Shown piece after piece: positions 1,217 through 59,632 of a stretch of DNA of 64,000 bases. The translations under genes and the position numbers were made by a program. The DNA is from Blastococcus sp. TF02A-35 (GTDB lineage Bacteria > Actinomycetota > Actinomycetes > Mycobacteriales > Geodermatophilaceae). Position 1 is the stretch's first letter; every line of letters begins with the position of its first letter. The stretch is taken from assembly GCF_004571075.1 (NCBI RefSeq), contig NZ_SPQP01000015.1, positions 1 through 64,000 on the forward strand. Reading direction: 5' to 3'. The notes beneath the pieces are model-generated. The model searched no databases and was not told the origin of the DNA. It worked only from the letters and a program-made list of their open reading frames with translations.

Positions 1217-2509
1217 GTGAGTGCGCTGCGATCGAGGACCCGCCAGGGACGGCGCTCCCCCGGCGCAGCCCCGTCCTCCGGGCTGCTCGGGGCGACGGCG
1301 GTCGTGTCCGTCGCCTTCCTGGGTGCGAACGCGCTGGCCTACGTCTTCACCGTCGTCGCCGCGCGGCAGCTGGCCCCCGCGGCCTACGGCGAGCTGGCCG
1401 CGCTGCTGAGCGTCCTGCTCGTGGGCTCGGTCCCGGCGGCGGGCCTCCAGACGGCGGCGGCGCTGCACCTGGGCGGCCGCCCCGGCGACGAGCGGACGAT
1501 GGCCCGGCTGCACGCCTCGAGCGCCTTCCTGGCCGTCGGCGTCTGCGCCCTGGGGCTGGTCCTGGTGCCGGTGCTCGTCGCCGCCCTGCACCTGCCGGCG
1601 GCCTCCGCCGCCGTGTGGCTGGCGGCGCTGCTGCTCCCGCACACGCTGGTGCAGGGGTACCAGGGGATGCTGCAGGGGTCGGGCCGCTACCGGCAGCTGG
1701 CCCTCGTCACGCTGGTGCTCGGCGCCGGCAAGCTGGTCGGCGGCGTCGCCGGGCTGCTGCTCGGCGGCACCACGTCCGCGGCCCTGGCGGGGATGGCCGC
1801 CGCCGCTGTCGTCGCCGCCGTCATCGGCTGGCTGGCCGTGGGGCGGCCGGGCCTGGGCCGCGGCACCCGGGCGCCGGTGACCGCCGCGCTGCGCGCGGCC
1901 GGCGCCCTCCTGGGGTTCACCGTGCTGCTCAACCTCGACGTGCTGCTCGCGCGGCACCACCTGCCCGCCGCGGTCACCGGTGAGTACGCCGTCGCGGCGA
2001 TCGTCACGAAGGTCGCGTTCTGGCTCCCGCAGGGCGTGGGGGTGGTGCTGCTCCCCCGGCTCGCCGACGCCGCCGGCCGCCGGCGGGCGCTGCCCGCCGC
2101 CCTGGCCGCGGTGGGCGGTCTGGGCGCCGTACTCACCCTGGGCACGGCCCTGATGGGCGAGCGGGCGCTGCCGCTGATCGGCGGGGCGGCCTACGGCGGC
2201 ACGCTCGGCTCGGCCACCTGGGTGTTCGCCGCGCTGGGCACGCTCCTGGCCCTGGCGCAGCTGCTGCTGTTCTCCGGCATCGCCGCCGCGGACCGGCTGG
2301 CCACGGTGGCGGTCTGGTCAGCGGCCGGGCTGGAGGCGGTGGTCGTGGCGCTCCTGGCGACGACGGACCGGCTCACCCTGCTCTCGCTGGCGACGACCTC
2401 GGTGCTCACCGCGGCCGCGCTCGTGGCGACCGGGCTGGTCCGCTCCCGCCGCGACCGCGCCGTCCCGGTGCTGGCCCCCGAGGGGGTCGTGCCGGCCCCC
2501 ACCGCCTGA
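1217..2509 (+). CDS. Oligosaccharide flippase / polysaccharide biosynthesis protein (MOP superfamily)
   Basis: 430 residues if the GTG at 1217 is used (AAGGGG directly upstream; the open frame extends further but over the divergent gene). After a basic N-terminal tail of about 20 residues there are roughly 12 hydrophobic segments, with the typical Wzx/MurJ-like opening ANALAYVFTVVAARQLAP (about residues 38-55), meaning a transporter of the lipid-linked oligosaccharide flippase type. It would act in the cytoplasmic membrane, moving polyprenyl-linked sugars outward. Its divergent neighbour is a membrane protein that could be the matching glycan enzyme. The substrate cannot be read from the sequence. 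Confidence 0.78.
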   Translation: MSALRSRTRQGRRSPGAAPSSGLLGATAVVSVAFLGANALAYVFTVVAARQLAPAAYGELAALLSVLLVGSVPAAGLQTAAALHLGGRPGDERTMARLHASSAFLAVGVCALGLVLVPVLVAALHLPAASAAVWLAALLLPHTLVQGYQGMLQGSGRYRQLALVTLVLGAGKLVGGVAGLLLGGTTSAALAGMAAAAVVAAVIGWLAVGRPGLGRGTRAPVTAALRAAGALLGFTVLLNLDVLLARHHLPAAVTGEYAVAAIVTKVAFWLPQGVGVVLLPRLADAAGRRRALPAALAAVGGLGAVLTLGTALMGERALPLIGGAAYGGTLGSATWVFAALGTLLALAQLLLFSGIAAADRLATVAVWSAAGLEAVVVALLATTDRLTLLSLATTSVLTAAALVATGLVRSRRDRAVPVLAPEGVVPAPTA

Positions 2510-2650
2510 CCGGCCCGTTCGTGATCAACACCGCGGGCCGGGGAGGACTACTCCGCCTCCGGTCAGGGCAGGAGCACCTCGTCGTCCGCCCGGAACGCCC
2601 TCCGGCGACCGGGCGGCAGCCTCGGCCCCGAGACGAGAGGAGCGCCGCCC

Positions 2651-3052
2651 ATGGCGTCCGTCATCCACTACACGATCGCCACCGAAGCCGAGAAGAGCCC
2701 CGACTTCCGTCGCGTGCTCTGGACCGGCACGAAGACCCAGCTGGTCATCATGACCATCCCGCCGGGCGGTGAGATCGGCGAGGAGGTCCACGAGGACATC
2801 GACCAGATCCTCACCTTCGTCAGCGGGACCGGTAAGGCGATCGTCGCCGGCTCGGAGAAGAACGTGGCCCAGGGCGACCTGGTCGTGGTGCCCGCCGGCA
2901 AGAAGCACAACTTCGTCAACACCGGCGCGAACCCGCTGATCCTCTACACGGTCTACGGCCCGCCGGAGCACGCCGACGGCGCGGTGCACAAGACCAAGGA
3001 AGAGGCCGACCGCCTCGAGGAGGAGGGCAAGGACGAGCCTCCGACGGAGTGA
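2651..3052 (+). CDS. Cupin-domain protein
   Basis: 133 residues, a single small beta-barrel cupin. ATG at 2651 has GAGAGG about 10 nt upstream. Cupin motif 1 is seen as GGEIGEEVHEDIDQILTFVSG (roughly residues 38-58) and motif 2 as GDLVVVPAGKKHNFVNTG (about 77-94), which retains the metal-ligand His. The C-terminal tail is charged (KTKEEADRLEEEGKDEPP). Small stand-alone cupins of this type are common and have varied enzymatic or binding roles; no substrate can be assigned. The gene is followed by a perfect 17-bp stem-loop, so it is probably monocistronic. Confidence 0.82.
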   Translation: MASVIHYTIATEAEKSPDFRRVLWTGTKTQLVIMTIPPGGEIGEEVHEDIDQILTFVSGTGKAIVAGSEKNVAQGDLVVVPAGKKHNFVNTGANPLILYTVYGPPEHADGAVHKTKEEADRLEEEGKDEPPTE

Positions 3053-3067
3053 CGTCGACGTCCCACC

Positions 3068-3104
3068 GGCTGTGGCCGGGCACCGCGGGTGCCCGGCCAC
3101 AGCC
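3068..3104 (+). terminator. Perfect stem-loop after the cupin gene
   Basis: Arms 3068-3084 and 3088-3104 are exact 17-nt inverted repeats with a GCG loop, starting 15 nt after the cupin stop. There is no T-run, as is usual in high-GC actinobacteria, so terminator function is inferred. Confidence 0.75.
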
Positions 3105-3156
3105 GTGCCGGGGGCCGGACGTGCCCGCCGGAGAGGCCCGGGCGAGACTCGGCGTC

Positions 3157-14200: not shown

Positions 14201-14268
14201 GCCCGCACCCTCCCCCTCGGTGCCGCCGATCATGCCCTCACCCTCGCCGGGAGGCGACGGCGGTGGCG

Positions 14269-14691
14269 CTAGGCGCGCCCGTCCAGCAGCGCGGCCATCG
14301 CCGGCAGGTCGAAGAAGGTCGCCATCTCGCGGGCGCTGGGCCCGCCGGCGTCGGGGTCGGCACCGGCGGCGAGCAGCGCCTGCACGGTCTCGGTGGACTG
14401 CTTGAAGACCGCCGCCGCGAGCGCCGTCTGGCCGCGGTCGTTGGCCCGCGCGTGGTCGGCCCCGCGGGCCAGGAGGGCGGCCACCGTCCCGGGGTGGCCG
14501 TGGTAGGCCGCGAGGATCAGCAGGGTGTCGCCCTTGTCGTTGGTCAGGTTGGCCGGCACCCCGGCGTCGAGGTAGGCGGAGAGCTCCTCGGTGTATCCGC
14601 CGCGTGCCAGGTCGAAGACCCGGCCGGCGAGTTCGATGACCTCGGGATCGATCTGCTGTCCGCTCACGCCTCCAGCGTAGGAGGCGGTCAC
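14269..14691 (-). CDS. Ankyrin-repeat protein
   Basis: 140 residues from GTG 14691 (132 from GTG 14667; neither has a well-spaced ribosome binding site). Two or three ankyrin repeats are visible: KGDTLLILAAYHGHPGTVAALL (about 59-80), RGQTALAAAVFKQSTETVQALL (about 92-113) and a degenerate third, REMATFFDLPAMAALL. These repeats mediate protein-protein contacts. In bacteria small free-standing ankyrin proteins often accompany catalases or secreted enzymes, but no such partner is adjacent here. Cytoplasmic; function unknown. Confidence 0.82.
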   Translation of the reverse strand: MTASYAGGVSGQQIDPEVIELAGRVFDLARGGYTEELSAYLDAGVPANLTNDKGDTLLILAAYHGHPGTVAALLARGADHARANDRGQTALAAAVFKQSTETVQALLAAGADPDAGGPSAREMATFFDLPAMAALLDGRA

Positions 14692-14715
14692 GGCGCCGGC
14701 CCGCCACCTGCCCCG

Positions 14716-15189
14716 TCAGAGTGGGAGCTTGAGCCCCGCGTGCGAGTGGACGAACCCGAGCGCCTCGTAGAACCGGTGGGCGCCGGGGCGGGACAGGTCG
14801 CTGGTGAGCTGCACCAGGGCGCACCCCTGCCGGCGGCACTCCTCGACAGTCCAGCGGAGCAGCGCTCGCCCCAGCCCCTCGCCGCGGCGGTCGGCCCGCA
14901 CGCGGACGGCCTCCACCTGGCCCCGCAGGGCACCGCCGCGGGCCAGCCCGGGCAGGAGGGAGAGCTGCAGGGTGCCGACGACGTCGTCGCCGTCCGCGGC
15001 CACGACGAGCAGGTGCGCGGGGTCGCCGTCGATCCGGTCGAACGCCGCCCGGTAGGGCGCGAGGTCCGCTCCCTCCCGGCTCCGGCCGAGCGGGTCGTCG
15101 GCCAGCAGCGCCACGAGGGCCGGCAGGTCCTCGGCCGTCGCCGGCCGCACCCGCACGGCGGTTCCGGGCAGCGGCCCCCAGGCCGGCAC
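14716..15189 (-). CDS. GNAT-family N-acetyltransferase
   Basis: 157 residues, GTG at 15189 only 2 bp after the preceding hydrolase stop, so translationally linked. The GNAT fold is recognisable: RPATAEDLPALVALL at the start, LQLSLLPGL for beta4, then the acetyl-CoA pyrophosphate loop VRVRADRRGEGLGRALLRW (about 98-116) and RFYEALGFVHSHAGLKLPL at the end. It transfers an acetyl group to an amine. The ending resembles a common bacterial subgroup acting on small molecules; the substrate is unknown. Confidence 0.85.
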   Translation of the reverse strand: MPAWGPLPGTAVRVRPATAEDLPALVALLADDPLGRSREGADLAPYRAAFDRIDGDPAHLLVVAADGDDVVGTLQLSLLPGLARGGALRGQVEAVRVRADRRGEGLGRALLRWTVEECRRQGCALVQLTSDLSRPGAHRFYEALGFVHSHAGLKLPL

Positions 15190-15191
15190 GC

Positions 15192-15944
15192 TCAGCGCCG
15201 GGCCACCTGGTCGGTGAGGGCGAGCAGGTGCTCCCACGCGTCGTCGCAGGCGTCGGCCCAGTCCCCGTAGGAGCGGTCGAAGAAGGAGTGCGGCGCGCCG
15301 TCGTAGACGACGGCGTCGACCTCGGCACCCGCGGCACGCATGCGCTCCGCGAGGGCCAGCTGCTCCTCGACCGGGGTGGCGGTGTCGGCACCGGCGATGA
15401 GCATCACCGTCGGCAGGTGCGCCCGGTCGGCGGCGTCGCCCACCAGCGAGGGCCGCCCGTAGAAGCCGGCGCAGCCGGCCAGGTCGAGGTCGCCGCCGGC
15501 CAGCCGCCACGCGTGGCTGCCGCCGAAGCAGAAGCCGACGGTGACGACCGGGAGGTCCTCCCCCGCCTCGGCCCGGAGGTGCGCCACGGCGGCGGCGACG
15601 TCGGCGTCGATGCCCTCCGGGGCGGTCCGCGGGATGTGCTGCTGCCAGTCGAAGTCCTCGCCGCGGGTGCCGCCCTCGCACACGCCCGCGGTGCGCCCGA
15701 ACCAGTCGATCGCCACCGCCGCGACGCCGGCCTCGGCGAACCGCTCGACCAGTGCCACGTAGTAGGGGTGCAGCCCGCGGATGTCCGGGAGCACGACGAC
15801 GCCGGTCCGCGCCGGCTCGGCGGGCAGGGCGGTGCTCACCGTGAACTCGGTGCCGTCGGCCGCGGTGAGCGTCGAGGACGAGGTGGCCCCGACGGCGCCG
15901 CTGCGCGGCGGTGCCGGGGGGCGGCTGTCGTGGCTGTGGCACAT
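15192..15944 (-). CDS. Dienelactone hydrolase family protein
   Basis: 250 residues. ATG 15944 gives the start MCHSHDSRPP, the usual beginning of actinobacterial members (they often read MC.DHDSRPP). The alpha/beta-hydrolase core shows GVVVLPDIRGLHPYY, a nucleophile elbow GFCFGG with catalytic Cys (about residue 142), an Asp in IAGADTATPVEEQ, and His in GAPHSFFDRSYG. This Cys-Asp-His triad is that of carboxymethylenebutenolidases. The role may be hydrolysis of lactones in aromatic breakdown or a detoxification step. The next gene, a GNAT, is coupled 2 bp away. Confidence 0.85.
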   Translation of the reverse strand: MCHSHDSRPPAPPRSGAVGATSSSTLTAADGTEFTVSTALPAEPARTGVVVLPDIRGLHPYYVALVERFAEAGVAAVAIDWFGRTAGVCEGGTRGEDFDWQQHIPRTAPEGIDADVAAAVAHLRAEAGEDLPVVTVGFCFGGSHAWRLAGGDLDLAGCAGFYGRPSLVGDAADRAHLPTVMLIAGADTATPVEEQLALAERMRAAGAEVDAVVYDGAPHSFFDRSYGDWADACDDAWEHLLALTDQVARR

Positions 15945-47300: not shown

Positions 47301-48599
<1,299 letters not shown>

Positions 48600-48616: not shown

Positions 48617-49027
48617 TCAACCCGGACCGGCCGAGCGCCTCCGGCGCAACCAGCCGCCGCCGTACAGCGCCCAGAGCACGAGCAGCGGCTGGAAGAACAG
48701 CCGCACCAGGCGCTTGCGGTCGGTGTCGAGGCCGAAGGCGTCGGTGCCCTCGAGGTACTGCGCGACGTTGCCCGGGAAGATGACGACGAAGAACGCGGCC
48801 AGCAGCCCGCCGACGAGCCGCTTCCGCCGCGGCAGGGCGACGAAGGCCGCCCCCAGGGCGATCTCGGCGACCCCGGACCCCAGCACCGTGAGGTCCTCGT
48901 CCAGCGGGAACCACGCGGGCACCTGCGCCCGGAACTCCTCCCGCTGTGTCGTCAGGTGCAGCACCCCGGCGCCCACCATCGTCGCCCCCAGGACGAGTCG
49001 GGCGGCGGTCCGGGCGCGGGCGGCCAC
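48617..49027 (-). CDS. DoxX-like membrane protein
   Basis: 136 residues from GTG 49027 with GGAGGAG upstream. Four hydrophobic segments: ARLVLGATMVGAGVLHL, LTVLGSGVAEIALGAAFVAL, LVGGLLAAFFVVIFPGNVAQYLEG (about 69-92), and a last one LVRLFFQPLLVLWALYGG. The pattern is that of DoxX/MauE-type proteins, which are often redox-linked membrane proteins of unclear role. The start is 2 bp after the DAHP synthase stop. This ends the operon that contains the nitrogen-salvage genes, although its link to that pathway is not obvious. Confidence 0.8.
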   Translation of the reverse strand: MAARARTAARLVLGATMVGAGVLHLTTQREEFRAQVPAWFPLDEDLTVLGSGVAEIALGAAFVALPRRKRLVGGLLAAFFVVIFPGNVAQYLEGTDAFGLDTDRKRLVRLFFQPLLVLWALYGGGWLRRRRSAGPG

Positions 49028-49029
49028 GG

Positions 49030-50265
49030 TCAGCTCCTCCGGGCGCGGGCGGCTCCGGCCAGCTCGGCCAGCATCGCCTCGGTCGTCGGGAGGTCGACGC
49101 AGGCGTCGGTGACGCTCCGGCCGTGCTCGAGGCGCTCCGGGTGCTGCCGGTCGAGGTCCTGCCGCCCGGCCACCAGGTTGCTCTCCACCATGACGCCCCG
49201 GATGGCCGTCTCGCCGCCGGCGACCTGCCCGGCGAGGTCGTGCACGACCTCGATCTGGCGCAGGTGGTTCTTCTGGCTGTTGCCGTGCGAGGCGTCGACG
49301 ACGACGACCTGCGGCAGCCCCCGCTCGGCCAGCCGCTGCCGGAGGTCCGCGATGTGCTGGGCGGAGTAGTTGGGGCCGTCCTTGGCGCCGCGCAGGATCA
49401 CGTGCCCGGTGTCGTTGCCCGTGGTCGACAGCTGGGCGGAGACGCCGTGGGCGTCCACGCCGAGGAACTCGTGCGGCGACCGCGCCGTCACCACCGCCTG
49501 GATCGCGGACTCGACGCTCCCCTCCGGGGAGTTCTTGAAGCCGACGACCGAGGAGAAGCCCGACACCCGCTCGCGGGCGGTCTGGTCGGTGACGTTCCGC
49601 GCCCCGACGCCGTTGTAGGTGACCAGGCCGTTGACGTACTGGGGGGTGAGGGCGTTCAGCGGCTCCGCGGCGACCGGGACGCCGAGGTCGGTGATGGCGC
49701 ACATGAGCATCCGGGTGGCGACCAGGCCGACGCTGATCCGGCTGGAACCGTCGAGGAAGGGGTCGTAGGCGAAGCCCTTCCAGTCCACCTCGGTGCGCGG
49801 CTTCTCCGTGTAGGTCCGCATCAGGATCTCGAGGTCCGCACCGTGCCGCTCCCGCATCCGCGCGATGAAGCCGGCGTACTCCAGCGCGGCCTCCGCGTCG
49901 TGGATCGAGCAGGGGCCGGCGATGACCGCGAGGCGCCGGTCGGCGCCGGACAGGATGCCGGTCATGGCCCGGCGGGCGGCCCGGGTGGTCGCGGCGGAGG
50001 TCTCCGACAGCGGGACGACGGCGGCCACCGACGCCGGCGTCACGACGACGCTCAGCCCGGTGATGCGGGCGTTGACCAGGTCGCCGAGGTCGGCGGCGTC
50101 GTCCGGCGCGACGCCGAGCTCCCGCTGGACCCCAGGCAGCAGGTCGGCCAGCGCCGCGTCGATCTGCCCGTTGACGCGGGTCTGCACCTCCAGCAGCAGG
50201 TCGGCGACCCGTGCCGCCCGGTCCAGGATGCGGTTCGCAGCGATGGGAGCCTCCTCGGTCGTCAC
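49030..50265 (-). CDS. Class I 3-deoxy-7-phosphoheptulonate (DAHP) synthase
   Basis: 411 residues from GTG 50265, overlapping the TetR stop by 4 bp. It condenses PEP and erythrose-4-phosphate, the first step of aromatic amino-acid synthesis. Hallmarks: LAVIAGPCSIHDAEAALEYA (about 117-136), RTYTEKPRTEVDWKGFAYDP (about 151-170), GFKNSPEGSVESAIQAV and DASHGNSQKNH. It is AroF/G/H-like. An N-terminal extension of about 60 residues makes it longer than the E. coli enzymes (about 350). Most actinobacteria use the class II enzyme for housekeeping, so this copy in a degradative operon is unusual. Confidence 0.94.
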   Translation of the reverse strand: MTTEEAPIAANRILDRAARVADLLLEVQTRVNGQIDAALADLLPGVQRELGVAPDDAADLGDLVNARITGLSVVVTPASVAAVVPLSETSAATTRAARRAMTGILSGADRRLAVIAGPCSIHDAEAALEYAGFIARMRERHGADLEILMRTYTEKPRTEVDWKGFAYDPFLDGSSRISVGLVATRMLMCAITDLGVPVAAEPLNALTPQYVNGLVTYNGVGARNVTDQTARERVSGFSSVVGFKNSPEGSVESAIQAVVTARSPHEFLGVDAHGVSAQLSTTGNDTGHVILRGAKDGPNYSAQHIADLRQRLAERGLPQVVVVDASHGNSQKNHLRQIEVVHDLAGQVAGGETAIRGVMVESNLVAGRQDLDRQHPERLEHGRSVTDACVDLPTTEAMLAELAGAARARRS

Positions 50266-51029
50266 CGGCCCGTCGACCGGCCGGCCCCGCCATCCTCCCC
50301 GACCGGCTCCGCGAGCGGTCGGCTGACCGCCAGGGACGCCGCCCGCAGCGCCGTCCGGTCCCCGCGCCAGCCGAGCGCGTGCAGGCCGAGGTCGGCGGTG
50401 CGCAGCGGCTGGTCGGGCCGGCCGGTGGCGTCGGCGCGCAGGTTCGGCAGGGTCTCGGTCAGCCGGAAGACGACCTCGTCGTCGGGGTCGGCCACGAAGT
50501 CGCCCGGCACCGCCGGTGGCAGGGCCTCGACCACCGCACGGGAGAGGTCGCGGTACCGGGTCCGCAGGTGGTCGCGGTCCCGCGAGAAGCGGGCGAAGCG
50601 CTCGGTCCGGACCTCGGGCAGCAGGTAGAGGATGCCCAGGTTCCAGGGGCTCTCCCACAGCTGCCGGCAGTCCAGGTGCGTGAGGGCGTGCAGGCGCACC
50701 TCCGGCGCCAGCGGCAGCCGGGCCAGCCGCTCCGCCCACGCCAGCGGACGGGTCACCGTGCCGCTGAGCAGCGCCTCGAGGATGTCGTCCTTGGTGCGGA
50801 ACCAGTGGTAGAGCGAGGCCTGCCGCATCCCGACCGCCTCGGCGATCTGCCGGGTGGAGGTGGCGGCGTAGCCGCAGGTGGTGAACAGCTCCCCCGCCGC
50901 GTCGAGCACCTCGTCGCGGGCGGTGTCGCCGGCCCGCCTCCGGTCCTCGAGCCGGGGGCGCCCGGTGGCGGCAGCACGCACGGCCCCGATGCTGCCGGAC
51001 AGGGCCGTCGCCGTGCGCGCTGCCGCCAC
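50262..51029 (-). CDS. TetR-family regulator
   Basis: 255 residues from GTG 51029, 6 bp after the symporter stop. A long N-terminus (about 35 residues) precedes the HTH: DEVLDAAGELFTTCGYAATSTRQIAEAVGMRQASLYHWFRTKDDIL (about 39-84). The ligand domain contains LTHLDCRQLWESPWNLGILYLLPE. Embedded in the carboxylase operon, it may respond to the substrate or a nitrogen signal, but it could equally regulate the coupled DAHP synthase. No operator palindrome was found nearby. The N-terminal extension is unusual for TetR proteins. Confidence 0.87.
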   Translation of the reverse strand: MAAARTATALSGSIGAVRAAATGRPRLEDRRRAGDTARDEVLDAAGELFTTCGYAATSTRQIAEAVGMRQASLYHWFRTKDDILEALLSGTVTRPLAWAERLARLPLAPEVRLHALTHLDCRQLWESPWNLGILYLLPEVRTERFARFSRDRDHLRTRYRDLSRAVVEALPPAVPGDFVADPDDEVVFRLTETLPNLRADATGRPDQPLRTADLGLHALGWRGDRTALRAASLAVSRPLAEPVGEDGGAGRSTGR

Positions 51030-51035
51030 GCCCGC

Positions 51036-52517
51036 CTACCGGGCGACCGCGAGGTCGGGCACGGCCGGCGCCGGGAGCGGCGCGGGCCCCTCGTCGGCGG
51101 CGCGGCGCCGGGAGACGGCGGCGACTGCGACGTAGGTGACCAGGCATGCGCCGGCCGCCCAGAAGGTCGACCAGCCGTCCGCGGAGGCGGAGACCAGGTC
51201 GTTGTCGACGTGGAACAGGGTGTTCTCGACGCCGTAGATGGTGGGCGTGAGGACGAAGAACGTGAGCCGCACGCCCATGCCGACGACGATCGCGGCGGCC
51301 GCGGCGGCCGCTCCGCCCCGCTGCCAGTACAGCCCGAGGGCGAACGGCACGACCAGGCTGGCGAGCAGCAGGTCGAAGGCGAGGGTGAGCAGGATGCCGG
51401 TCTGCGGCACGCGGAGCGCCACGACTGCGCCGAGCGCGGCCATCGGCAGCGTGGCCCACCGGGTGGCGGTCATGATGCGCGGGGTCATCACCGCGCTGCC
51501 GGCGTCGACCTGCAGCACGTTGCGCACCAGGACCGACGCCGTGCTCAGCAGCACCCCGCTCACCGTGGTGACGGTGGCGGCGAGGATGCCGGAGATCACG
51601 ATGACCGCCAGCCAGGCCGGCGCGTGCTCCCCGAGCAGCGTGTAGAGGATCGGTCCCTCGGCGTCGCCGACGACGCCGACCGCGGCGAGCGCGACGAACG
51701 ACAGCGGCAGGCAGAACAGCAGGATCCCGGCGGAGGCGGAGAAGCAGGCGCGCTGCGCGGTGCCCGGGCTGCGGGAGGAGAAGCCCCGCTGCATGAGGTC
51801 GATGGCCACGAGGTTGCCCAGGCCGAGGGCGATGATCGTGGCCCAGTTGACCACCGCGCCGGAGTCGGCGGAGGTGAGCTGGTCGAGGTTGCCGGCGCCC
51901 AGCCCCCCGGGCGCGGTGAAGCCGTGGGTGCTGCCCATCCAGACCACCAGGGCGATCACGCCGACGACGTTGATCGCCACCTGCGCGACGCCGGTGTAGA
52001 CGCTGGCGAACATCCCGCCGGTGATCGTGTAGAGCAGCGCCAGCGGGATCGTGATGAGGATGCCGACGGTGTAGCTGACGCCGAGGAAGCGCTCGAGCAG
52101 GAAGCCGAGCGCGACCAGGTTGCCGGCCAGCAGGAGGCCGAAGCTGGCCACCGTGAGCAGCGAGGCCGACAGCTCGGTCCCCCGGCCGAACCGGCGGCGG
52201 AAGAACTCCGGCAGCGTCACCACGTTGGCCGCGTGCATCCTCCGGGCGAAGAACAGGCCCATGAGCAGCAGGCACAGCGCCAGGCCGATCGGCAGCGCGG
52301 CGCCGGCCCAGAACCCGAAGGCCGCGGCCAGGTCGGCGTTGCCGACGGTGGCGTTCGAGTCGACGGCCTGGGAGATCAGGACGGCGCCGACCAGGCCGGC
52401 GGACAGGGTGCGCCCGGCGACCAGGTAGTTGGCCGAGTCCCCGCGGACTCTTCGTGCGGACACCAGCCCGCTGACCGTGAGGACGAGCATGCACAGACCG
52501 ACACCAGCAACGACCAT
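51036..52517 (-). CDS. Sodium:solute symporter (SSS family), probable substrate importer of the operon
   Basis: 493 residues, 13 or so membrane segments, ATG 52517. Family motifs: RGDSANYLVAGRTLSAGLVGAVLISQAVDSNATVG (about 25-59), a GxxLPEFFRRRFGR-like loop, and a Na+-site helix around LAVIVISGILAATVTTVSGVLLSTASVLVRNVL (about 307-339). Its position after allophanate hydrolase suggests it imports the operon's substrate, for example urea or guanidine, but SSS proteins are broad. It is separated from the hydrolase by 80 bp that include its own possible promoter. Confidence 0.88.
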   Translation of the reverse strand: MVVAGVGLCMLVLTVSGLVSARRVRGDSANYLVAGRTLSAGLVGAVLISQAVDSNATVGNADLAAAFGFWAGAALPIGLALCLLLMGLFFARRMHAANVVTLPEFFRRRFGRGTELSASLLTVASFGLLLAGNLVALGFLLERFLGVSYTVGILITIPLALLYTITGGMFASVYTGVAQVAINVVGVIALVVWMGSTHGFTAPGGLGAGNLDQLTSADSGAVVNWATIIALGLGNLVAIDLMQRGFSSRSPGTAQRACFSASAGILLFCLPLSFVALAAVGVVGDAEGPILYTLLGEHAPAWLAVIVISGILAATVTTVSGVLLSTASVLVRNVLQVDAGSAVMTPRIMTATRWATLPMAALGAVVALRVPQTGILLTLAFDLLLASLVVPFALGLYWQRGGAAAAAAAIVVGMGVRLTFFVLTPTIYGVENTLFHVDNDLVSASADGWSTFWAAGACLVTYVAVAAVSRRRAADEGPAPLPAPAVPDLAVAR

Positions 52518-52597
52518 GTCGAGACTCCAGAACGGTGGACGGGAGGGGTGGGTGGAGCCCCGGCGACGTCGGCGGGAGGTACTGCGGGGAGGGCGGG

Positions 52598-54364
52598 TCA
52601 GACGAGGTGCGGGACCCCGGCGGGCGGCGCTGCCCGCTGGGCGGTGAGCCAGTCGCCGTGCTCGCTGATGTCCCGGCCGGACTGCCAGGCCTCGAGCGAG
52701 CAGCCGAAGCCGACGACCTCGGAGCGGTCGGCGAGCTCCACCCGGCCCAGGTGCATGGGGGCGGGCAGGGCGGCGAGGAACGTGCCGAGCTGCGCGGTCG
52801 GCACCAGCCAAAGCTGGCCGCCGATCGCGACCCCGGCGGCGGTGCCGACCCGGGCCAGGCCCGGCTTGGCGGGCACGGTGCCCAGCCGGGCGAGGCGGTA
52901 GGCGGCGGCGGTGGTCGCCGGGCCGAGCCACCGCGCGCCCAGCGCGTCGAGCTCGCCCGCGAGGGGCTGGCCGCGCAGGTGCGCGCCGACGACGAGCAGC
53001 CGGGTGGCGTCCGCGCCGGCCGCCACCGGCCAGGGCAGGTCGCGGGGCACCGCGACCGCCCGGGCACCGGCCCGGGCCACCGACGGGGTCGGCAGCTCCA
53101 CCAGCCGCGCCAGGTCGAGCGCGAGGGCGTCGGCCCCGGCCCGCGCGAGGACCGAGACGCCGAACTCGAGGTCCTCGCCGTCGTCGTCCCGCACCGTGCC
53201 CGAGGGGACGGCCACGGCGCAGAGGTCCATGAGGTTGCAGAAGTTCGTGTACGTGCCCAGGCCGGAGTTGACGCCCACCGGGTCAGCGGCGACCTCGGCC
53301 AGCGTCGGGTGCGAGGTGGTGGTCGGGACGAGCAGCGCGTCAAGCCCGTCGAGCGTGGCCAGCGCGGTCGCCGTCAGCTGCTCCAGGCGCTCCCGGTCGT
53401 GCAGCAGCCGGGTCGCGGTCACCGTGCCGGCAGCGCCGATGATGGCGCCGACCACCGGGTCGACGTCGTCGCGGTGCGCGTCGACGAACGCGCCGACGGC
53501 CGCGTGCCGCTCGGCCACGAGACCGCCGTCGTAGAGCAGCCGCGCCGCGTCGAGGAACGGGGTGAGGTCGACCGGCTGCACCGCGACGCCCTGCGCGGCG
53601 AGCCGCTCCACCGCCACCGCGAAGGCCGCGCGCCGGGACGCGGACAGGCCCGGCAGCTCCGCCGGCACGGCGACCCGCGCCCCCGGACGCGCGGCCAGCG
53701 GGGCCGCAGGAGGCCAGGGACGCGCACCGCCGGCCATCTCCGCCATCGCGGCCTCGGCGGTGCCCAGGTCGCGGGCGAAGACGGTGACGCAGTCGTAGGA
53801 GCGGCAGGCGGGGACGACACCCTCGACCGGCACCACCCCGACGGTCGGCTTGATGCCCACCACGCCCTGCAGCGCGGCCGGCACCCGCCCGGATCCGGCG
53901 GTGTCGGTGCCCACGGCCAGGTCCACCAGCCCGAGGGCGACGGCGACGGCGGACCCCGAGCTCGACCCGCCGGAGATCCGGTCGGGGCGCCGGGCGTCGC
54001 GGACCGCGCCGTGCGGGCTGCGGGTGCCGACCAGGCCGGTGGCGAACTGGTCGAGGTTCGTCGTCCCGAGCACCACGGCCCCGGCGGCGCGCAGCCGGGC
54101 CACGGCCGGGGCGTCGGCCGCCGCCGGCGCGGTCGCGAAGGCCGGGCATCCGGCCGTCGTGGGGAGGCCGGCGACGTCGACGTTGTTCTTCACCGCCGCG
54201 GCCAGCCCGGCCAGGGGCAGCCGCTCCCCCGCCGCGACCCGCCGGTCGACGGCGGCGGCCTCGGCGAGGACGTCCGCCTCGTCCCGCAGGTGGACCCAGA
54301 CCTCGGGCCGGTCGACCTCGGCGACCGCGAGGTAGGCCGCCCGGACGCGCTCGACGGCGCTCAC
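52598..54364 (-). CDS. atzF: Allophanate hydrolase
   Basis: 588 residues from GTG 54364, overlapping the carboxylase stop by 4 bp. It hydrolyses allophanate to ammonia and CO2. The amidase signature gives the Ser-cisSer-Lys triad: Lys in LAAAVKNNVDVAG (about 60-72) and GGSSSGSAVAVALG with RISGGSSSG (about 140-155). The C-terminal AtzF/DUR1,2-like domain (about 440-588) includes LPAPMHLGRVELADRSEVVGFGC and HGDWLTAQRAA. Its length and domain pair are those of full-length AtzF. It pairs with the biotin carboxylase upstream. Confidence 0.95.
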   Translation of the reverse strand: MSAVERVRAAYLAVAEVDRPEVWVHLRDEADVLAEAAAVDRRVAAGERLPLAGLAAAVKNNVDVAGLPTTAGCPAFATAPAAADAPAVARLRAAGAVVLGTTNLDQFATGLVGTRSPHGAVRDARRPDRISGGSSSGSAVAVALGLVDLAVGTDTAGSGRVPAALQGVVGIKPTVGVVPVEGVVPACRSYDCVTVFARDLGTAEAAMAEMAGGARPWPPAAPLAARPGARVAVPAELPGLSASRRAAFAVAVERLAAQGVAVQPVDLTPFLDAARLLYDGGLVAERHAAVGAFVDAHRDDVDPVVGAIIGAAGTVTATRLLHDRERLEQLTATALATLDGLDALLVPTTTSHPTLAEVAADPVGVNSGLGTYTNFCNLMDLCAVAVPSGTVRDDDGEDLEFGVSVLARAGADALALDLARLVELPTPSVARAGARAVAVPRDLPWPVAAGADATRLLVVGAHLRGQPLAGELDALGARWLGPATTAAAYRLARLGTVPAKPGLARVGTAAGVAIGGQLWLVPTAQLGTFLAALPAPMHLGRVELADRSEVVGFGCSLEAWQSGRDISEHGDWLTAQRAAPPAGVPHLV

Positions 54365-57300
54365 GCGGACACCAGCTCCGCGGCCTCGGCACCGACGACG
54401 ACCAGCGGCGTGCCGGCGGAGACCTGCGTGCCCGCGCCGACGAGGACGTGGGTGACCACGCCGTCGGCCGGCGCGGTTAGCACCGTCTCCATCTTCATGG
54501 CCTCGAGCGCGAGCAGCGGCTGGCCGGCGGTGACCCGGTCCCCCACCGCGACGTCGACCCGCCACACGTTGGAGACGAACGGTGCGTCCACCCGCTCGGC
54601 GCCGTCGGGGAGCACCAGCTCGCCGGCCGGCTCGGCCGCCACCGAGGACTCCGCCCGCTTGGCGCGGTCGAACTCCCCGGCGGCCTCCCAGTCGGCGCGC
54701 TCCTGGCCGAACGCGGCGGCCTGCTGCGCGCGGAAGGCGGCGATGGAGTCGGCGTTCTCGGCCAGGAACCGCTCATGCTCGGCGAGGGAGAACGTGCCCT
54801 CGGTGATGTCGACCGAGCCGCGCCCCGCCGCCATGTCCGCGCGCAGGTCCAGCAGCTCCTCGGCGGTGACCGGGTACCAGGAGATGCGGTCGAAGAAGCG
54901 CAGCAGCCAGGGGCTGCCCGGCTCGAACGGCGCGGTGTGCCGGTACCGGCTCCAGACCTGCGTGGTGCGGCCGACGAACTGGTACCCGCCCGGCCCCTCC
55001 ATGCCGTAGATGCAGAGGTAGGCGCCGCCGATGCCGACCGAGTTCTCCGCCGTCCAGGTGCGGGCCGGGTTGTACTTGGTGGTGACCAGCCGGTGCCGGG
55101 GGTCCAGCGGGGTGGCCACCGGGGCGCCCAGGTACACGTCGCCCAGCCCGAGGGTCAGGTACTCCGCGGAGAAGACCGTCGCCATGACGTCGTCCGCGCC
55201 GGCCAGGCCGTTGACCCGGCGGATGAAGTCGATGTTGGACGGGCACCACGGGGCGTCGTCGCGGACGCCGGACATGTAGCGGGAGATCGCCTCGCGGGTG
55301 GCCGGGTCGTCCCAGCTCAGCGGCAGCCGCACCGACCGGCTGGGGACGACGAGCTCCGAGGTCGCGGGCAGCTCCCGCTCGACCTCCGCCAGCAGCCCCA
55401 GCAGCCGGGCGACCGGGAGCACGTCGGGGTCGACGTGCACCTGCAGCGACCGGATGCCCGGCGTGAGGTCGAGGATCCCCCGGACCTCGCCGGCGTCCTG
55501 CAGCCGGGCCAGCCGCGTGTGCAGGGCGTGCACGCGAGCGCGCAGGGCCAGGTCCAGCACGATCTCGCCGTACTCGACCAGCACGTTGTCGTCGCCGCTG
55601 CGCCGGTAGGTCACCGACGGCGCACCGTCCACCGCCGGGCGGCGGCCGAGCACGCCGTCGTCGCCGTCGCCGCCGGAGGTGCGCACCAGGGGCGACGCCG
55701 CCCGCCGGCCGGCCGACAGGTCCGCCCGGGAGGCCACCTCGGCGACGCGCACCGGCACGAACCGGACCGTGTCGCCCGGCCGGAGCTGGCCGAGCTTCCA
55801 CCGGTCGGCGGTGACGACCGTGACCGGGCAGACGAAGCCACCGAGGCTGGGGCCGTCGGGCCCGAGCAGGATCGGGGTGTCGCCCGTGAAGTCCAGCGCG
55901 CCGACCGAGTAGGCGTTGTCGTGGATGTTCGACGGGTGCAGGCCGGCCTCGCCGCCGTCGGGCCGCGCCCACGCCGGCTGCGGCCCGACCAGCCGGACGC
56001 CGGTCCGGGCCGAGTTGAAGTGCACCGTGTACGGGCTGGCGTAGAGGGTCTCGACGTCCTCGCGAGTGAAGAACTCCGGGGCGCCGTGCGGCCCCTCGGT
56101 CACCGCGAGCTGCCAGTCGTTCGGCATCGCCGGGCGCACCTCCACCGGGACCGGGCCGGCGGCGCGGCCCGGGGCGTCGGCGGCGCGCAGCACGTCACCG
56201 GGCAGCAGGGCCCGGCCGCCGTGGCCGCCGAACTGGCCGAGGGTGAACGTGGCCGCGCTGCCCAGGTAGGCCGGCACGTCCAGGCCACCGGCGACGAGCA
56301 CGTAGCTGCGCATCCCGGTGCCCTCGGCGGCGCCGACGTCCAGGAGCCCGCCCGCGGGGACCTCGACCGGCTCCCACATCGGCACCGGCCGCCCGTCGAC
56401 GGTCACGGCGCACTCCGCTCCGGTGACGCAGACGGTGGTCGCCGCCGAGAAGCGCAGCGCCGGGCCGGAGGCGGTGCACTCCAGGCCGGGCACGCCCTCG
56501 CGGTTGCCGAGCGCCCGGTTGCCCAGGCGGAAGGAGAGGTCGTCCATCGGCCCGCTCGGCGGGACGCCGACCTGCCACAGGCCGACCCGGCCCGGGGCGT
56601 CCTGCACGGTGGTCATCAGGCCGGGGCGCTCGACGGTGATCCGCGGCCGCGGGTCGCCGACGCCGGCCAGGGTGGCGGTGCTGTGCTCTGCGGCCCTGAC
56701 CTCGGGGAGAGCCGGCACCGCGGCGAGCAGCCCGAGGTTGACCTCGATGCCGTACATCGTGGTGCGGGCCAGGGCGTCGCCGAGCCGGTCGAGGGCCTCG
56801 TCGCGGTCGGCGCCGGAGGTGATGACCTTGGCCAGCAGCGGGTCGTACGACGGCGACACCTCGGTGCCGCTCTCCACCCAGGCGTCGACGCGGACGCCGT
56901 CACCCTCGGGGAGCTGCACAGAGGTGAGCACGCCGGCGCTGGGCTGGAAGTCGCGCGCCGGGTCCTCGGCGTACACCCGCGCCTCGACGGCGTGCCCGCG
57001 CACCGGCACCGCGCCGGTGGGCGCGCCGGCGAGGTGCCCGTCGAGCACCGACGTCTCCCCCTGCGCCAGCCGCAGCATCCAGGCGACGAGGTCGACGCCG
57101 GTGACCGCCTCGGTGACCGGGTGCTCCACCTGCAGGCGGGCGTTGACCTCCAGGAAGGAGGCCTCCTGCCGCCGGGGGTCGTAGATGAACTCGACGGTGC
57201 CGGCCGAGCGGTAGCCGACCGACGCCGCGAGCGCGCGGGAGGACTCGTGCAGCTGCTCCCGGAGGGCGTCCGGCAGCGCCGGGGCGGGGGCCTCCTCGAG

Positions 57301-58014
57301 CACCTTCTGGTTGCGCCGCTGCAGGGAGCAGTCGCGGTCCCCGAGCGAGAGGACCCGGCCGGTGCCGTCGCCGAAGACCTGCACCTCCACGTGCCGAGCG
57401 TGCTCGACGAAGCGCTCCGCGAACACGCCGGCGGAGCCGAAGCTGCGCTCGGCCTGGCGCACGACCCGGTCGTAGGCGGCGAGCAGCTCCCCGGCGTCGC
57501 GGCAGACCTGCATGCCGATCCCGCCACCGCCGCCGGTGGCCTTGAGCATCAGCGGGTAGCCGACCTCCTCGGCCGCTGTGAGCGCGGCGGCGGCGTCGTC
57601 CAGCAGCCCGGTCCCGGCGAAGATCGGGACGCCCGCGGCGTGCGCGGCGTCCCGGGCGGTGTGCTTGGTGCCGAACACGCGCAGCTGCTCCGGCGTGGGC
57701 CCGACGAAGGTCAGCCCGGCGGCCTCGACCGCGGTGGCGAAAGCGGCGTCCTCGGAGAGGAAGCCGTACCCGGGGTGCACCGCACCGGCCCCGGTCCGGG
57801 CGGCCGCCTCGAGGACGGCGTCGGCCCGCAGGTAGCTCTCCTGGGGGGCGGCCGGGCCGATGCGGACCGCCTCGTCGGCGAGGTGCACGTGCGGGGCGCC
57901 GCGGTCGGCGTCGGAGAAGACGGCAACCGTCCGCAGGCCCAGCGCCTTCGCCGAGCGGATGATCCGGACGGCGATCTCGCCGCGGTTGGCCACCAGCAGG
58001 GTCTCGAAGGTCAT
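54361..58014 (-). CDS. Biotin-dependent urea/guanidine carboxylase
   Basis: 1217 residues, single chain. In order: biotin carboxylase N-terminus (FETLLVANRGEIAVRIIRSAKALG, about 3-26), ATP-grasp with ATGGGGGIGMQV (about 162-173) and FLEVNARLQVEHPVTE, and BC C-terminal domain. Then the AHS2/KipA-like carboxyltransferase part (MTTVQDAPGRVGLWQVGVPP), the AHS1/KipI-like part (VEYGEIVLDLALRARVHALH), and a C-terminal biotinyl domain with EAMKM (biotinylated Lys1174). It makes carboxy-urea or carboxyguanidine, which allophanate hydrolase then breaks down. Flanking UAAP proteins favour guanidine. Overlaps both neighbours by 4 bp. Confidence 0.94.
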   Translation of the reverse strand: MTFETLLVANRGEIAVRIIRSAKALGLRTVAVFSDADRGAPHVHLADEAVRIGPAAPQESYLRADAVLEAAARTGAGAVHPGYGFLSEDAAFATAVEAAGLTFVGPTPEQLRVFGTKHTARDAAHAAGVPIFAGTGLLDDAAAALTAAEEVGYPLMLKATGGGGGIGMQVCRDAGELLAAYDRVVRQAERSFGSAGVFAERFVEHARHVEVQVFGDGTGRVLSLGDRDCSLQRRNQKVLEEAPAPALPDALREQLHESSRALAASVGYRSAGTVEFIYDPRRQEASFLEVNARLQVEHPVTEAVTGVDLVAWMLRLAQGETSVLDGHLAGAPTGAVPVRGHAVEARVYAEDPARDFQPSAGVLTSVQLPEGDGVRVDAWVESGTEVSPSYDPLLAKVITSGADRDEALDRLGDALARTTMYGIEVNLGLLAAVPALPEVRAAEHSTATLAGVGDPRPRITVERPGLMTTVQDAPGRVGLWQVGVPPSGPMDDLSFRLGNRALGNREGVPGLECTASGPALRFSAATTVCVTGAECAVTVDGRPVPMWEPVEVPAGGLLDVGAAEGTGMRSYVLVAGGLDVPAYLGSAATFTLGQFGGHGGRALLPGDVLRAADAPGRAAGPVPVEVRPAMPNDWQLAVTEGPHGAPEFFTREDVETLYASPYTVHFNSARTGVRLVGPQPAWARPDGGEAGLHPSNIHDNAYSVGALDFTGDTPILLGPDGPSLGGFVCPVTVVTADRWKLGQLRPGDTVRFVPVRVAEVASRADLSAGRRAASPLVRTSGGDGDDGVLGRRPAVDGAPSVTYRRSGDDNVLVEYGEIVLDLALRARVHALHTRLARLQDAGEVRGILDLTPGIRSLQVHVDPDVLPVARLLGLLAEVERELPATSELVVPSRSVRLPLSWDDPATREAISRYMSGVRDDAPWCPSNIDFIRRVNGLAGADDVMATVFSAEYLTLGLGDVYLGAPVATPLDPRHRLVTTKYNPARTWTAENSVGIGGAYLCIYGMEGPGGYQFVGRTTQVWSRYRHTAPFEPGSPWLLRFFDRISWYPVTAEELLDLRADMAAGRGSVDITEGTFSLAEHERFLAENADSIAAFRAQQAAAFGQERADWEAAGEFDRAKRAESSVAAEPAGELVLPDGAERVDAPFVSNVWRVDVAVGDRVTAGQPLLALEAMKMETVLTAPADGVVTHVLVGAGTQVSAGTPLVVVGAEAAELVSA

Positions 58015-58676
58015 GCCGCACCGCCCGGGCGGGTGACGACCATGCGGACCGGCGTCGGGTCGAAGGCGTTGCAGGGGTTGTTGACCTGCGGGCAGTTCGA
58101 GACCAGCACCAGGGTGTCCACCTCGGCGCGCAGGGCCACCCGCTTGCCGGGGCCGGAGAGCCCGTCTACGATGCCGAGGGCGCCGTCCGGGTCGACCGGC
58201 ACGTTCATGAACCAGTTGATGTTCGAGGCGAGGTCCCGGGCGTCCAGCCCGTGGCGGGCGCCCTCGACCAGGAAGTTCTCCAGGCAGCCGTGCTGGGCGC
58301 GGGTGTGCTGCCCGTAGCGCAGGGTGTTGGACTCCTTGGAGCAGGCGCCGCCCAGGGTGTCGTGCACCCCGACCTCGTCGGCGACGACGGTCATCAGCGC
58401 CTGGCCGGTGTCGGCGCGGAGCACCGAGCCGGTGGTCAGGACGATGCGGCCCTGCCGGCGGACCGTCTCGGCCGCGGAGTAGCGGACCGAGGTGTCGGCG
58501 GCGGAGTAGAGCAGGCAGTCGACGGCCTGGTTGCCGGCCAGGTCGACGATGGTGAGCACGTCCCCGGCGGCGACGACGGCCGACCACGGCCCGCGGGCGG
58601 CGACGACCTCGTCGAGGACGAGCTCCCCCGGCACGAGCGCGGGCGTGGTGGGTGGGACGAGGTCCTGGACGGTCAC
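58011..58676 (-). CDS. DUF1989/UAAP2-type protein (carboxyguanidine deiminase subunit, probable)
   Basis: 221 residues from GTG 58676. Seen: PWSAVVAAGDVLTIVDLAGNQAVDCLLYSAAD (about 30-61), GACSKESNTLRYGQH (about 110-124), HGCLENFLVEGARHGL and SNINWFMNVPVDPDG. These match urea-amidolyase-associated protein 2, whose family is known from guanidine-degrading operons as part of a heteromeric carboxyguanidine deiminase. It would act between the carboxylase and allophanate hydrolase. Conserved Cys/His residues (Cys112, His124, Cys130) fit a metal site. Coupled by 4-bp overlaps on both sides. Confidence 0.88.
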   Translation of the reverse strand: MTVQDLVPPTTPALVPGELVLDEVVAARGPWSAVVAAGDVLTIVDLAGNQAVDCLLYSAADTSVRYSAAETVRRQGRIVLTTGSVLRADTGQALMTVVADEVGVHDTLGGACSKESNTLRYGQHTRAQHGCLENFLVEGARHGLDARDLASNINWFMNVPVDPDGALGIVDGLSGPGKRVALRAEVDTLVLVSNCPQVNNPCNAFDPTPVRMVVTRPGGAA

Positions 58677-59548
58677 AGCACTCCCCTGGCGAGCAGATCG
58701 GCGTCGGTGTTGGCGATGGCCTGGACGTGCTCGGGGCCGAGCGGTCCCACGAGCTCGCCGGCCACGAGGCGGTGGAGGTCACCCGGCGCGGCCCAGGCGC
58801 GGACCTCCAGCGGCGAGCAGGTGAACTCCGGCCGCGGGTCCAGCGGGTGGGCGGTGTTGGCCAGCAGCACCACCGTGTCGACGTGCAGCAGCAGGTCCAC
58901 CGAGGCGCCGGGGCCGGCCGAGCCGAGCCACTCGAAGGAGCCGTCGGCCCGCACCCGGACGCCCTGGAAGAAGGAGACCGACGGTGGGAGGTCGCGGACG
59001 CCGAGGCCGTGCTTGAGGGCGCCGAGGGTGAGCAGCTCGCGGCCGGCCGGGGAGCCGGACTCCGGGGCCGCGGCGCCGTAGCGGGCGAGGTTGCCCTCGC
59101 GCGTGGTCGTGCCGGTGAGCGCGTCGTGCTGGCCGGAGGTGTCGGCGACCACCGTCGCCAGCACCCGGCCGAAGCCGCTGAGCAGCGGGTGGCCGGCGGA
59201 CAGGTAGGCCTGCCAGGGCACCTTGACGGTGTCGGCCACGTTCAGCCGCTCGTGCGGCGAGTCGGCGCGGTGCAGGAGGACGGAGGCACAGGCCGCGCCG
59301 TCCCGGTCGGTCAGCCGCAGCCGGGTGCCGCGGGCGAGGACGGCGGTGGCGTAGCCACCGGGCGCGACGGTCTCCGCCCAGCGCAGCGCCTCGGCCGAGA
59401 GCCCGTCGGGGACGACGCCGGGAGCGGCGGGTGCGGAGGCCGGCGGGACGTGCCGCATGAGGTCGGCGGTTCGGCCGTGCTGGGCTCGGGCGTGCGCCCT
59501 GGCCCCGGCCGTGGTGGCCGTCGCTGAGCCGCTGGTGGTGCTGGTCAC
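58673..59548 (-). CDS. DUF1989/UAAP1-type protein (carboxyguanidine deiminase subunit, probable)
   Basis: 291 residues from GTG 59548. A 50-residue disordered Ala/Thr/His-rich leader precedes the DUF1989 domain: ARGTRLRLTDRDGAACASVLLHRADSPHERLNVADTVKVPWQ (about 72-113), then ADTSGQHDALTGTTTREGN (about 136-154) and LPPSVSFFQGVRV. This is urea-amidolyase-associated protein 1. With UAAP2 it forms, in characterised guanidine pathways, the deiminase that converts carboxyguanidine to allophanate. First gene of the operon. The long leader may mean the true start lies further in. Confidence 0.85.
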   Translation of the reverse strand: MTSTTSGSATATTAGARAHARAQHGRTADLMRHVPPASAPAAPGVVPDGLSAEALRWAETVAPGGYATAVLARGTRLRLTDRDGAACASVLLHRADSPHERLNVADTVKVPWQAYLSAGHPLLSGFGRVLATVVADTSGQHDALTGTTTREGNLARYGAAAPESGSPAGRELLTLGALKHGLGVRDLPPSVSFFQGVRVRADGSFEWLGSAGPGASVDLLLHVDTVVLLANTAHPLDPRPEFTCSPLEVRAWAAPGDLHRLVAGELVGPLGPEHVQAIANTDADLLARGVL

Positions 59549-59632
59549 GGGCCCTCCCGTGGTGTCGGCGACGCCCTCGCGGGGAGGGCTTCCTGTCGCT
59601 CGACAGTTTTTCGAGCACCACGGGGTGGGTGG

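Follow-up and report, generated by a model that had tools for sequence, protein, structure and literature searches.

A six-gene operon of Blastococcus sp. TF02A-35, annotated for urea breakdown, is better read as a guanidine-assimilation module

A stretch of 64,000 nucleotides from Blastococcus sp. TF02A-35 (positions 1 to 64,000 of contig NZ_SPQP01000015.1, assembly GCF_004571075.1; hereafter the window) carries on its minus strand a biotin-dependent carboxylase operon of the kind usually annotated as urea carboxylase. As far as sequence can tell, guanidine degradation is much the better reading of this operon and urea the lesser one, and the cluster very probably makes guanidine available to the cell as a source of nitrogen. 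The functional module most likely consists of six genes, UAAP1 to TetR (50262-59548): two DUF1989 proteins (UAAP1 and UAAP2), the carboxylase, an AtzF-type allophanate hydrolase, a transporter of the sodium/solute symporter (SSS) family and an AmtR-like repressor of the TetR family. That these six form a guanidine-assimilation module working in the manner proposed below is, in our judgement, highly probable.

Results

The carboxylase carries the guanidine-type residue

The carboxylase (P0001; 54361-58014, minus strand; 1217 amino acids, aa) scores 1752.1 bits against TIGR02712 (cut-off 1303.85) and unites biotin carboxylase, carboxyltransferase and biotinyl domains on a single chain, with an AMKM biotin motif and matches to the Pfam domains CT_A_B, CT_C_D and Biotin_lipoyl. 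At position 1330 of the Kluyveromyces lactis enzyme, Asp marks guanidine and Asn marks urea as the substrate, while Asp1584 is required, and many genes annotated as urea carboxylases have already been stated to encode guanidine carboxylases (PMC11410670; PMC12186494). The alignment of P0001 with the K. lactis structure (5i8i) spans almost the whole protein (residues 2-1206) and places Asp708 opposite Asn1330 (TIGR02712 position 701), so that the guanidine-type residue is present and the urea-type Asn absent, and Asp959 opposite Asp1584. The initial annotation had preferred guanidine to urea catabolism and had named an alignment with characterized carboxylases as a check; that alignment returns Asp at the discriminating position, unlike the Asn of the fungal urea carboxylase, and together with Asp959 and the way in which linked UAAP1 and UAAP2 genes track the Asp (below) it upholds the preference. 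Asp708 equally supports the suspicion that the name urea carboxylase misleads here, a general point already made in the two studies cited.

Upstream of the carboxylase gene, UAAP1 (58673-59548, minus strand; 291 aa) scores 277.6 bits against TIGR03425 (cut-off 205.95) and UAAP2 (58011-58676, minus strand; 221 aa) 319.9 bits against TIGR03424 (cut-off 284.7), both also matching PF09347; they would be the two subunits of a carboxyguanidine deiminase. UAAP1 has no match in the Protein Data Bank (PDB) at E 0.001, and those of UAAP2 are distant (3oru, E 2.5e-13, and trimethylamine N-oxide demethylase). Downstream lies the AtzF-type allophanate hydrolase (52598-54364, minus strand; 588 aa), with an amidase and an AH_C domain (PF01425 and PF21986) and scores of 697.5 bits against NF006043 and 605.6 bits against TIGR02713, each above its cut-off.

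DUF1989 genes follow the discriminating residue across related loci

Related loci were drawn from 46 TIGR02712 matches in 44 of 397 genomes of the order (E <= 1e-300), from a carboxyltransferase search that reached 77 of the 397 at E <= 1e-100 and picks up carboxyltransferase-only forms missed at E <= 1e-300, and from a further 80 named loci, the best 80 of at least 571 candidates. After removal of four (L091 and L103, which overlap L142 and L124, and L187 and L194, taken as duplicates of L084 and L057 because the contigs are equally long), 162 carboxyltransferase loci were scored. Asp occurs together with two DUF1989 genes in 95 loci that have a biotin carboxylase and in 28 that lack one; Asn occurs in 25 loci, all with a biotin carboxylase and none with DUF1989. 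The remainder comprises ten Met-type loci without biotin carboxylase, which were counted separately, three Asp-type loci excluded from DUF1989 scoring because of masked bases (L084, 8600 bases) or short contigs (L157 and L222), and one fragment that lacks the discriminating residue (L121). Both DUF1989 genes are thus present in 123 of 123 scorable Asp-type loci, as against 0 of 25 Asn-type loci. Because all 25 Asn-type loci have AtzF and none has a UAAP gene, a urea pathway does not need the UAAPs. Three genomes (G252, G291 and G105) hold both types, the Asp form with UAAPs and, at a separate locus, the Asn form with AtzF and no UAAP.

In a FastTree phylogeny of 157 carboxyltransferase domains, the Asn, Met and Asp carboxyltransferase-only groups each fall on one side of a branch (local support 100, 100 and 98), and the discriminating residue changes at least twice. 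The full-length Asp group does not lie on one side of a branch (three changes), and there are warnings of meeting long branches, the Met-type rows included.

Two carboxyltransferase-only classes emerged from this survey. All 28 Asp-type loci without biotin carboxylase belong to one family (f8, apparently Mycobacteriaceae; L092-L094, L102, L104-L106, L108 and L122-L141), keep the Asp signature and two DUF1989 genes, and have neither a biotin carboxylase nor a biotinyl domain adjoining; the four that were translated measure 660-688 aa, the match of L094 comes in three pieces, and the 27 included in the tree form one group. Such enzymes would have to be supplied with carboxybiotin by a different enzyme, unless they operate in another way. 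The ten Met-type loci (L111-L120), which include two genomes (G029 and G241) from the same family as the window, have Met at the position of Asp708, DUF1989 genes, in most cases an allophanate-hydrolase-like amidase, and an APC permease in all three loci examined; their substrate is perhaps a substituted relative of guanidine.

An SSS transporter is a candidate guanidine importer

The SSS protein (P0005; 51036-52517, minus strand; 493 aa; PF00474, 97.4 bits against a cut-off of 22.8) weakly resembles choline transporters in the PDB. Its homologues at E <= 1e-60 number 19 in the 397 genomes, and every one lies beside a guanidine-degrading enzyme. Twelve, the window's included, are at most about 8 kb away from an Asp-type carboxylase gene, which is of the carboxyltransferase-only form in three cases, and the other seven, 47-54% identical to P0005, adjoin a gene for an arginase-family guanidinase. 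The closest structures to one such guanidinase (L097) are 9fek (E 2.3e-152) and 7esr/7oi1 (E 1.2e-146), far ahead of guanidinobutyrase 3nio (E 1.7e-46); these are the guanidinases of Nitrospira inopinata and Synechocystis (PMC11410670), and the Thr/His/Trp guanidinase signature described in the same paper is present in all seven arginase-family neighbours. A guanidine-I riboswitch above the gathering score was found in each of the seven guanidinase loci, heading the SSS gene in six and a guanidinase-SSS pair in one, and a guanidine-III riboswitch precedes the guanidinase in six. Six of the seven come from a single genus (g16) and are therefore not independent.

Because these transporters accompany two unrelated guanidine enzymes and sit in riboswitch-headed units, the SSS protein is most simply taken as a guanidine importer, for which its genomic context makes it a strong candidate. 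In a literature search judged mostly from titles and abstract openings, no paper was found that names an SSS guanidine importer. Other Asp-type loci may solve import differently: an APC permease is the alternative in the six representatives examined, and near two other loci a gene of an oligopeptide-type ABC system was seen, which may perhaps serve as importer.

An AmtR-like repressor and a candidate operator, proposed to act in place of a riboswitch

No part of the window matches Rfam at the gathering score, and between 48000 and 60500 no guanidine riboswitch family appears up to E 5; riboswitch control of the operon was rejected on these grounds. Searches of all Rfam families against seven Asp-type relatives (L043, L055, L057, L069, L070, L092 and L144) also gave no match. 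Among the 44 carboxylase-bearing genomes, RF00442 exceeds its cut-off in none and occurs below threshold in nine, under strict filters by which weak matches are lost; these sub-threshold guanidine-I-like RNAs (L086-L090 and four other places; eight at 45-53 bits and one at 35) lie away from the operon.

The last gene of the module encodes an AmtR-like TetR-family repressor (P0006; 50262-51029, minus strand; 255 aa; TetR_N domain). Its best PDB match is 5e57 ("AmtR", E 9.7e-51), followed by 5dxz, 5dy1, 5dy0, 5mqq and 6gy3 ("AmtR"), the next being 3dcf at E 8.9e-13. Three of these entries, 5dxz, 5dy1 and 5dy0, are titled only as TetR family and we take them to be AmtR. AmtR-like genes lie near 104 of the 123 scorable Asp-type loci, as against none of the 25 Asn-type loci, and 54 of the 73 AmtR-like homologues in the order are within 12 kb of a carboxyltransferase.

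A candidate AmtR operator, CTGTC-N4-GACAG (CTGTCGAGCGACAG on the minus strand; 59593-59606), lies 44 bp ahead of the UAAP1 gene; the window contains no other exact match. If one mismatch is tolerated, the window holds two such sites where 3.28 are expected, which is not above chance, so that the case for an operator depends on where the site lies and on its reappearance in relatives. Within a zone from -250 to +30 of UAAP1, TetR or SSS starts (starts of APC permeases were left out), 56 of the 123 Asp-type loci have an exact site and 74 have one with at most one mismatch; exact sites number 75 in the 68,283 bases near these starts, while the remainder of 2.26 Mb holds 24, the loci being related to each other and not independent trials. 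The 25 Asn-type loci, 0.48 Mb in all, have no exact site. When the arms were re-spaced or rearranged to give eight control patterns, exact sites turned up in 0-4 of the 123 loci, and one-mismatch sites in 0-10. Upstream of the candidate operator, at 59648-59633 on the minus strand, GTAAC-N6-GCAAC is one mismatch away from a single GlnR a-b box.

The AmtR box of Corynebacterium glutamicum is CTAT-N6-ATAG (PMC2723105), and the candidate operator, written as CTGT-N6-ACAG, has the same spacing. Gln53, Ser55 and Tyr57 contact DNA in the C. glutamicum protein, where Tyr58 and His59 also strongly affect DNA binding (PMC2723105); P0006 keeps the first three within "RQASLY" and has His and Trp in place of Tyr58 and His59. 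At the position of His43 in 5dxz (numbering of PMC2723105), both P0006 and 5e57 carry Arg. Since an Arg at the equivalent position of TetR reads the fifth base of CTATC (PMC2723105), the Arg of P0006 fits a half-site of five bases.

In Mycobacterium smegmatis, AmtR binds upstream of genes for a permease, two reading frames without known function, a "urea carboxylase" and an amidase; a search for its effector was unsuccessful, urea and amino acids having no effect on binding (PMC4222082). The string "guanid" is absent from the available text of that study and from a 2023 review of GlnR, and our literature search found no paper that combines AmtR, guanidine and urea. That guanidine is the ligand of the AmtR-like protein is a hypothesis which we offer as speculation.

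Limits of the module and neighbouring genes

The initial annotation had described an operon of eight minus-strand genes with mostly 4-bp overlaps. All eight open reading frames are present and adjacent, and five of the seven junctions overlap by 4 bp, with gaps of 80 bp between the hydrolase and SSS genes and 6 bp between the SSS and TetR genes; the functional module, however, is better read as six genes. The remaining two probably lie outside it as flanking genes: a 3-deoxy-D-arabino-heptulosonate 7-phosphate (DAHP) synthase (49030-50265, minus strand; 411 aa; TIGR00034 above cut-off, DAHP_synth_1) and a small DoxX-like membrane protein (48617-49033, minus strand; 138 aa, TTG start). Family models agree with the names given earlier, except that "DoxX", a label of the initial annotation, has no model above cut-off (no NCBIfam match, and Pfam MauE below cut-off only).

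The module lies between the genes for an SNF2 helicase and the DAHP synthase. In a congener without the operon (G206), the SNF2 helicase, DAHP synthase and DoxX genes are consecutive, with no guanidine genes among them, matching the flanks in the window; the DoxX homologue adjoins the DAHP synthase gene there and is 89% identical to that of the window. Among 19 genomes of the genus in the order-level sample, TIGR02712 is matched (E <= 1e-300) only in Blastococcus sp. TF02A-35 itself and in G190, where the module (at about 2.39 Mb) and the DAHP synthase gene (at 2.71 Mb) are some 0.3 Mb apart. Homologues of the DAHP synthase and DoxX-like proteins (E <= 1e-6) occur in none of 126 Asp-type relatives within the stretches fetched. 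From the synteny in G206, the separation in G190 and the 126 relatives, we conclude that the module behaves as a unit placed before the DAHP synthase gene.

The 4-bp overlaps of the two flanking genes in the window speak for their membership, and on balance, given the G206 synteny and the Asp-type loci without a homologue, we rejected both as members of the pathway. Of four congeners compared, only G206 shows a clear flank arrangement; the DAHP synthase and DoxX genes are about 8 kb apart in G016, and the stretches from G379 and G190 show the DAHP synthase only. In one Met-type locus from the window's family (L111), the DUF1989 genes are preceded at about 3 kb by a DAHP synthase gene (2089-3246; 78% identical). 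An APC permease gene and a PIG-L gene occupy the interval; the arrangement may reflect chance or an insertion hot spot, or hint at a true link to the DAHP synthase.

Beyond the DoxX-like gene, at 47301-48491 on the minus strand, lies a gene for a secreted-looking protein of 396 aa with a coiled coil and, by eye, a C-terminal part like resuscitation-promoting factor; a homologue is found near the DAHP synthase and DoxX genes of G206. The genome assembly comprises 3.93 Mb in 87 contigs, with the window on contig 8 of our set; G+C content is 71-77% throughout the window, and a tRNA search of the window found none.

Discussion

In the scheme we propose, guanidinium would enter through the SSS symporter, as genomic context suggests, and the biotin enzyme would use ATP to convert it to carboxyguanidine, as expected from Asp708 and from characterized homologues. 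By analogy with the characterized CgdAB, the UAAP1/UAAP2 pair would deiminate carboxyguanidine to allophanate, which AtzF, going by its family assignment, would split into ammonia and CO2, for a predicted yield of three ammonia per guanidine. The recurrence of the motif suggests that the AmtR-like protein represses the operon at CTGTCGAGCGACAG upstream of UAAP1, instead of a riboswitch; the foremost candidates for relieving this repression are guanidine and the intermediates of the pathway.

That the operon degrades urea as annotated, with the UAAPs as accessory factors of a urea carboxylase and an allophanate hydrolase, accords with the urea names of TIGR02712 and of the UAAP models, and with published work in which AmtR-controlled relatives are assigned to urea metabolism (PMC4222082, PMC5137332 and others). 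We consider it very improbable, given Asp rather than Asn at the discriminating position, the 25 Asn-type loci that manage with AtzF and without UAAPs, the guanidine-riboswitch units in which SSS homologues are found elsewhere, and the report that M. smegmatis does not grow on urea alone (PMC4222082). In addition, a urea carboxylase would be redundant because the genome already has urease genes (two PF00449 urease-alpha matches above cut-off on contig C37). The two matches on this contig (L009, L010 and L085) are about 2.3 kb apart, perhaps representing two urease gene sets. Scarcely more probable is a substituted guanidine as the substrate, such as methylguanidine or another guanidino compound, in place of free guanidine. 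One relative (L069) has a 2-oxoglutarate/Fe(II) oxygenase gene (14212-15240) between AtzF and SSS, an oxygenase of this kind demethylates methylguanidine in a Vreelandella operon (PMC12508155), and AmtR of C. glutamicum controls creatine and creatinine genes (PMC8864220); the window operon, however, has no such oxygenase, and the SSS homologues lie under guanidine-I riboswitches, a class that was guanidine-specific in the Vreelandella study (PMC12508155). The SSS gene might instead be an unrelated hitchhiker, guanidine entering otherwise, since the stretches fetched for 107 of the 123 scorable Asp-type loci contain no SSS homologue, an APC permease takes its place in six representatives, and most guanidinase genomes lack a homologue too (below). 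This we regard as unlikely, because all 19 homologues lie beside one of two non-homologous guanidine-degrading enzymes and all seven that are linked to a guanidinase are in riboswitch-headed units.

The signal to which the repressor answers is evenly contested. The AmtR-GlnK complex of C. glutamicum has a role in derepression. We put at about even chances that the AmtR-like protein senses overall nitrogen status by way of GlnK, like its corynebacterial counterpart, or is countered by GlnR, and does not respond to guanidine. One study of C. glutamicum mentions a complex of AmtR with GlnK (PMC2723105), a glnR mutant of M. smegmatis lost nitrogen control of AmtR-regulated genes (PMC4222082), a review describes AmtR competing with GlnR, and a GlnR-like box, with one mismatch, lies at 59648-59633. 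On the other side, M. smegmatis AmtR binds directly upstream of permease, UAAP and carboxylase genes, indifferent to urea and amino acids (PMC4222082).

Several observations weigh against a guanidine module with the importer and repressor proposed here. The call on specificity rests mostly on one residue, and no guanidine riboswitch was found in the window, though most guanidine-type carboxylase genes are riboswitch-controlled (PMC12186494). Ten of 17 guanidinase genomes (358 searched) have no SSS homologue at E <= 1e-60. Near the scored starts, 49 of the 123 Asp-type loci have no operator-like site, among them 11 of the 12 of family f15, all ten of genus g39 and the non-actinobacterial loci. 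The candidate palindrome, with a run of T, is also predicted, at a low score, to be a terminator on the plus strand, where no called plus-strand gene ends. Tyr58 and His59 of C. glutamicum AmtR are His and Trp in P0006. Nor are the AmtR-like proteins dedicated: 19 of the 73 homologues have no carboxyltransferase within 12 kb, from which we conclude that they also have other duties, and AmtR of C. glutamicum controls many nitrogen genes (PMC8864220; PMC2723105).

The guanidine carboxylase pathway of Pseudomonas syringae, Raoultella, Klebsiella and Vreelandella has the same guanidine carboxylase, CgdA/CgdB and AtzF as the window, together with the Asp signature, but relies on ABC importers where the window has an SSS symporter, and Raoultella, Klebsiella and Vreelandella employ guanidine-I/II riboswitches where the window has an AmtR-like TetR and no riboswitch detectable with Rfam. 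The AmtR operons of M. smegmatis (msmeg_2184-2189) and Kineococcus (Krad_0901-0906) share with it AmtR control (predicted for the window), two unknown frames, a "urea carboxylase" and an amidase, and differ in having an amino-acid permease in place of the SSS gene and in that their function was read as urea metabolism; overlapping GTGA/ATGA junctions, as in the window, are described for the Kineococcus genes (PMC4222082), and our locus from Kineococcus xinjiangensis (L148) is Asp-type, with two DUF1989 genes and an AmtR-like gene. The urea carboxylases of K. lactis and of the bacterial Asn-type loci have the same three-domain chain of about 1200 aa but carry Asn at position 1330, and the bacterial loci lack UAAP genes. 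The guanidinase (GdmH) pathway shares SSS homologues with the window at seven loci and uses a different, arginase-family enzyme, which was not found in the Blastococcus genome at E <= 1e-80.

The pathway and its misannotation were thus already known, and in the literature searched we did not find a description in which an SSS importer replaces an ABC importer and AmtR control replaces a riboswitch. It was the TetR and SSS genes, listed without interpretation in the initial annotation, that proved informative. More tentatively, and with rather less confidence than doubt, we suggest that the actinobacterial AmtR-controlled "urea" regulon may be a guanidine regulon whose AmtR-like proteins are relieved by guanidine or an intermediate, that this SSS subfamily may be a sodium-coupled guanidinium importer common to both guanidine pathways, and that many f8 relatives may use a stand-alone carboxyltransferase that borrows carboxybiotin. 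For the Blastococcus operon and its relatives, the analysis corrects a persistent annotation of a widespread actinobacterial operon and names a candidate guanidine importer of a type not linked to guanidine in the literature examined, which names ABC and APC importers. It also offers guanidine as a candidate ligand for AmtR, whose effector in M. smegmatis was sought among urea and amino acids without success (PMC4222082).

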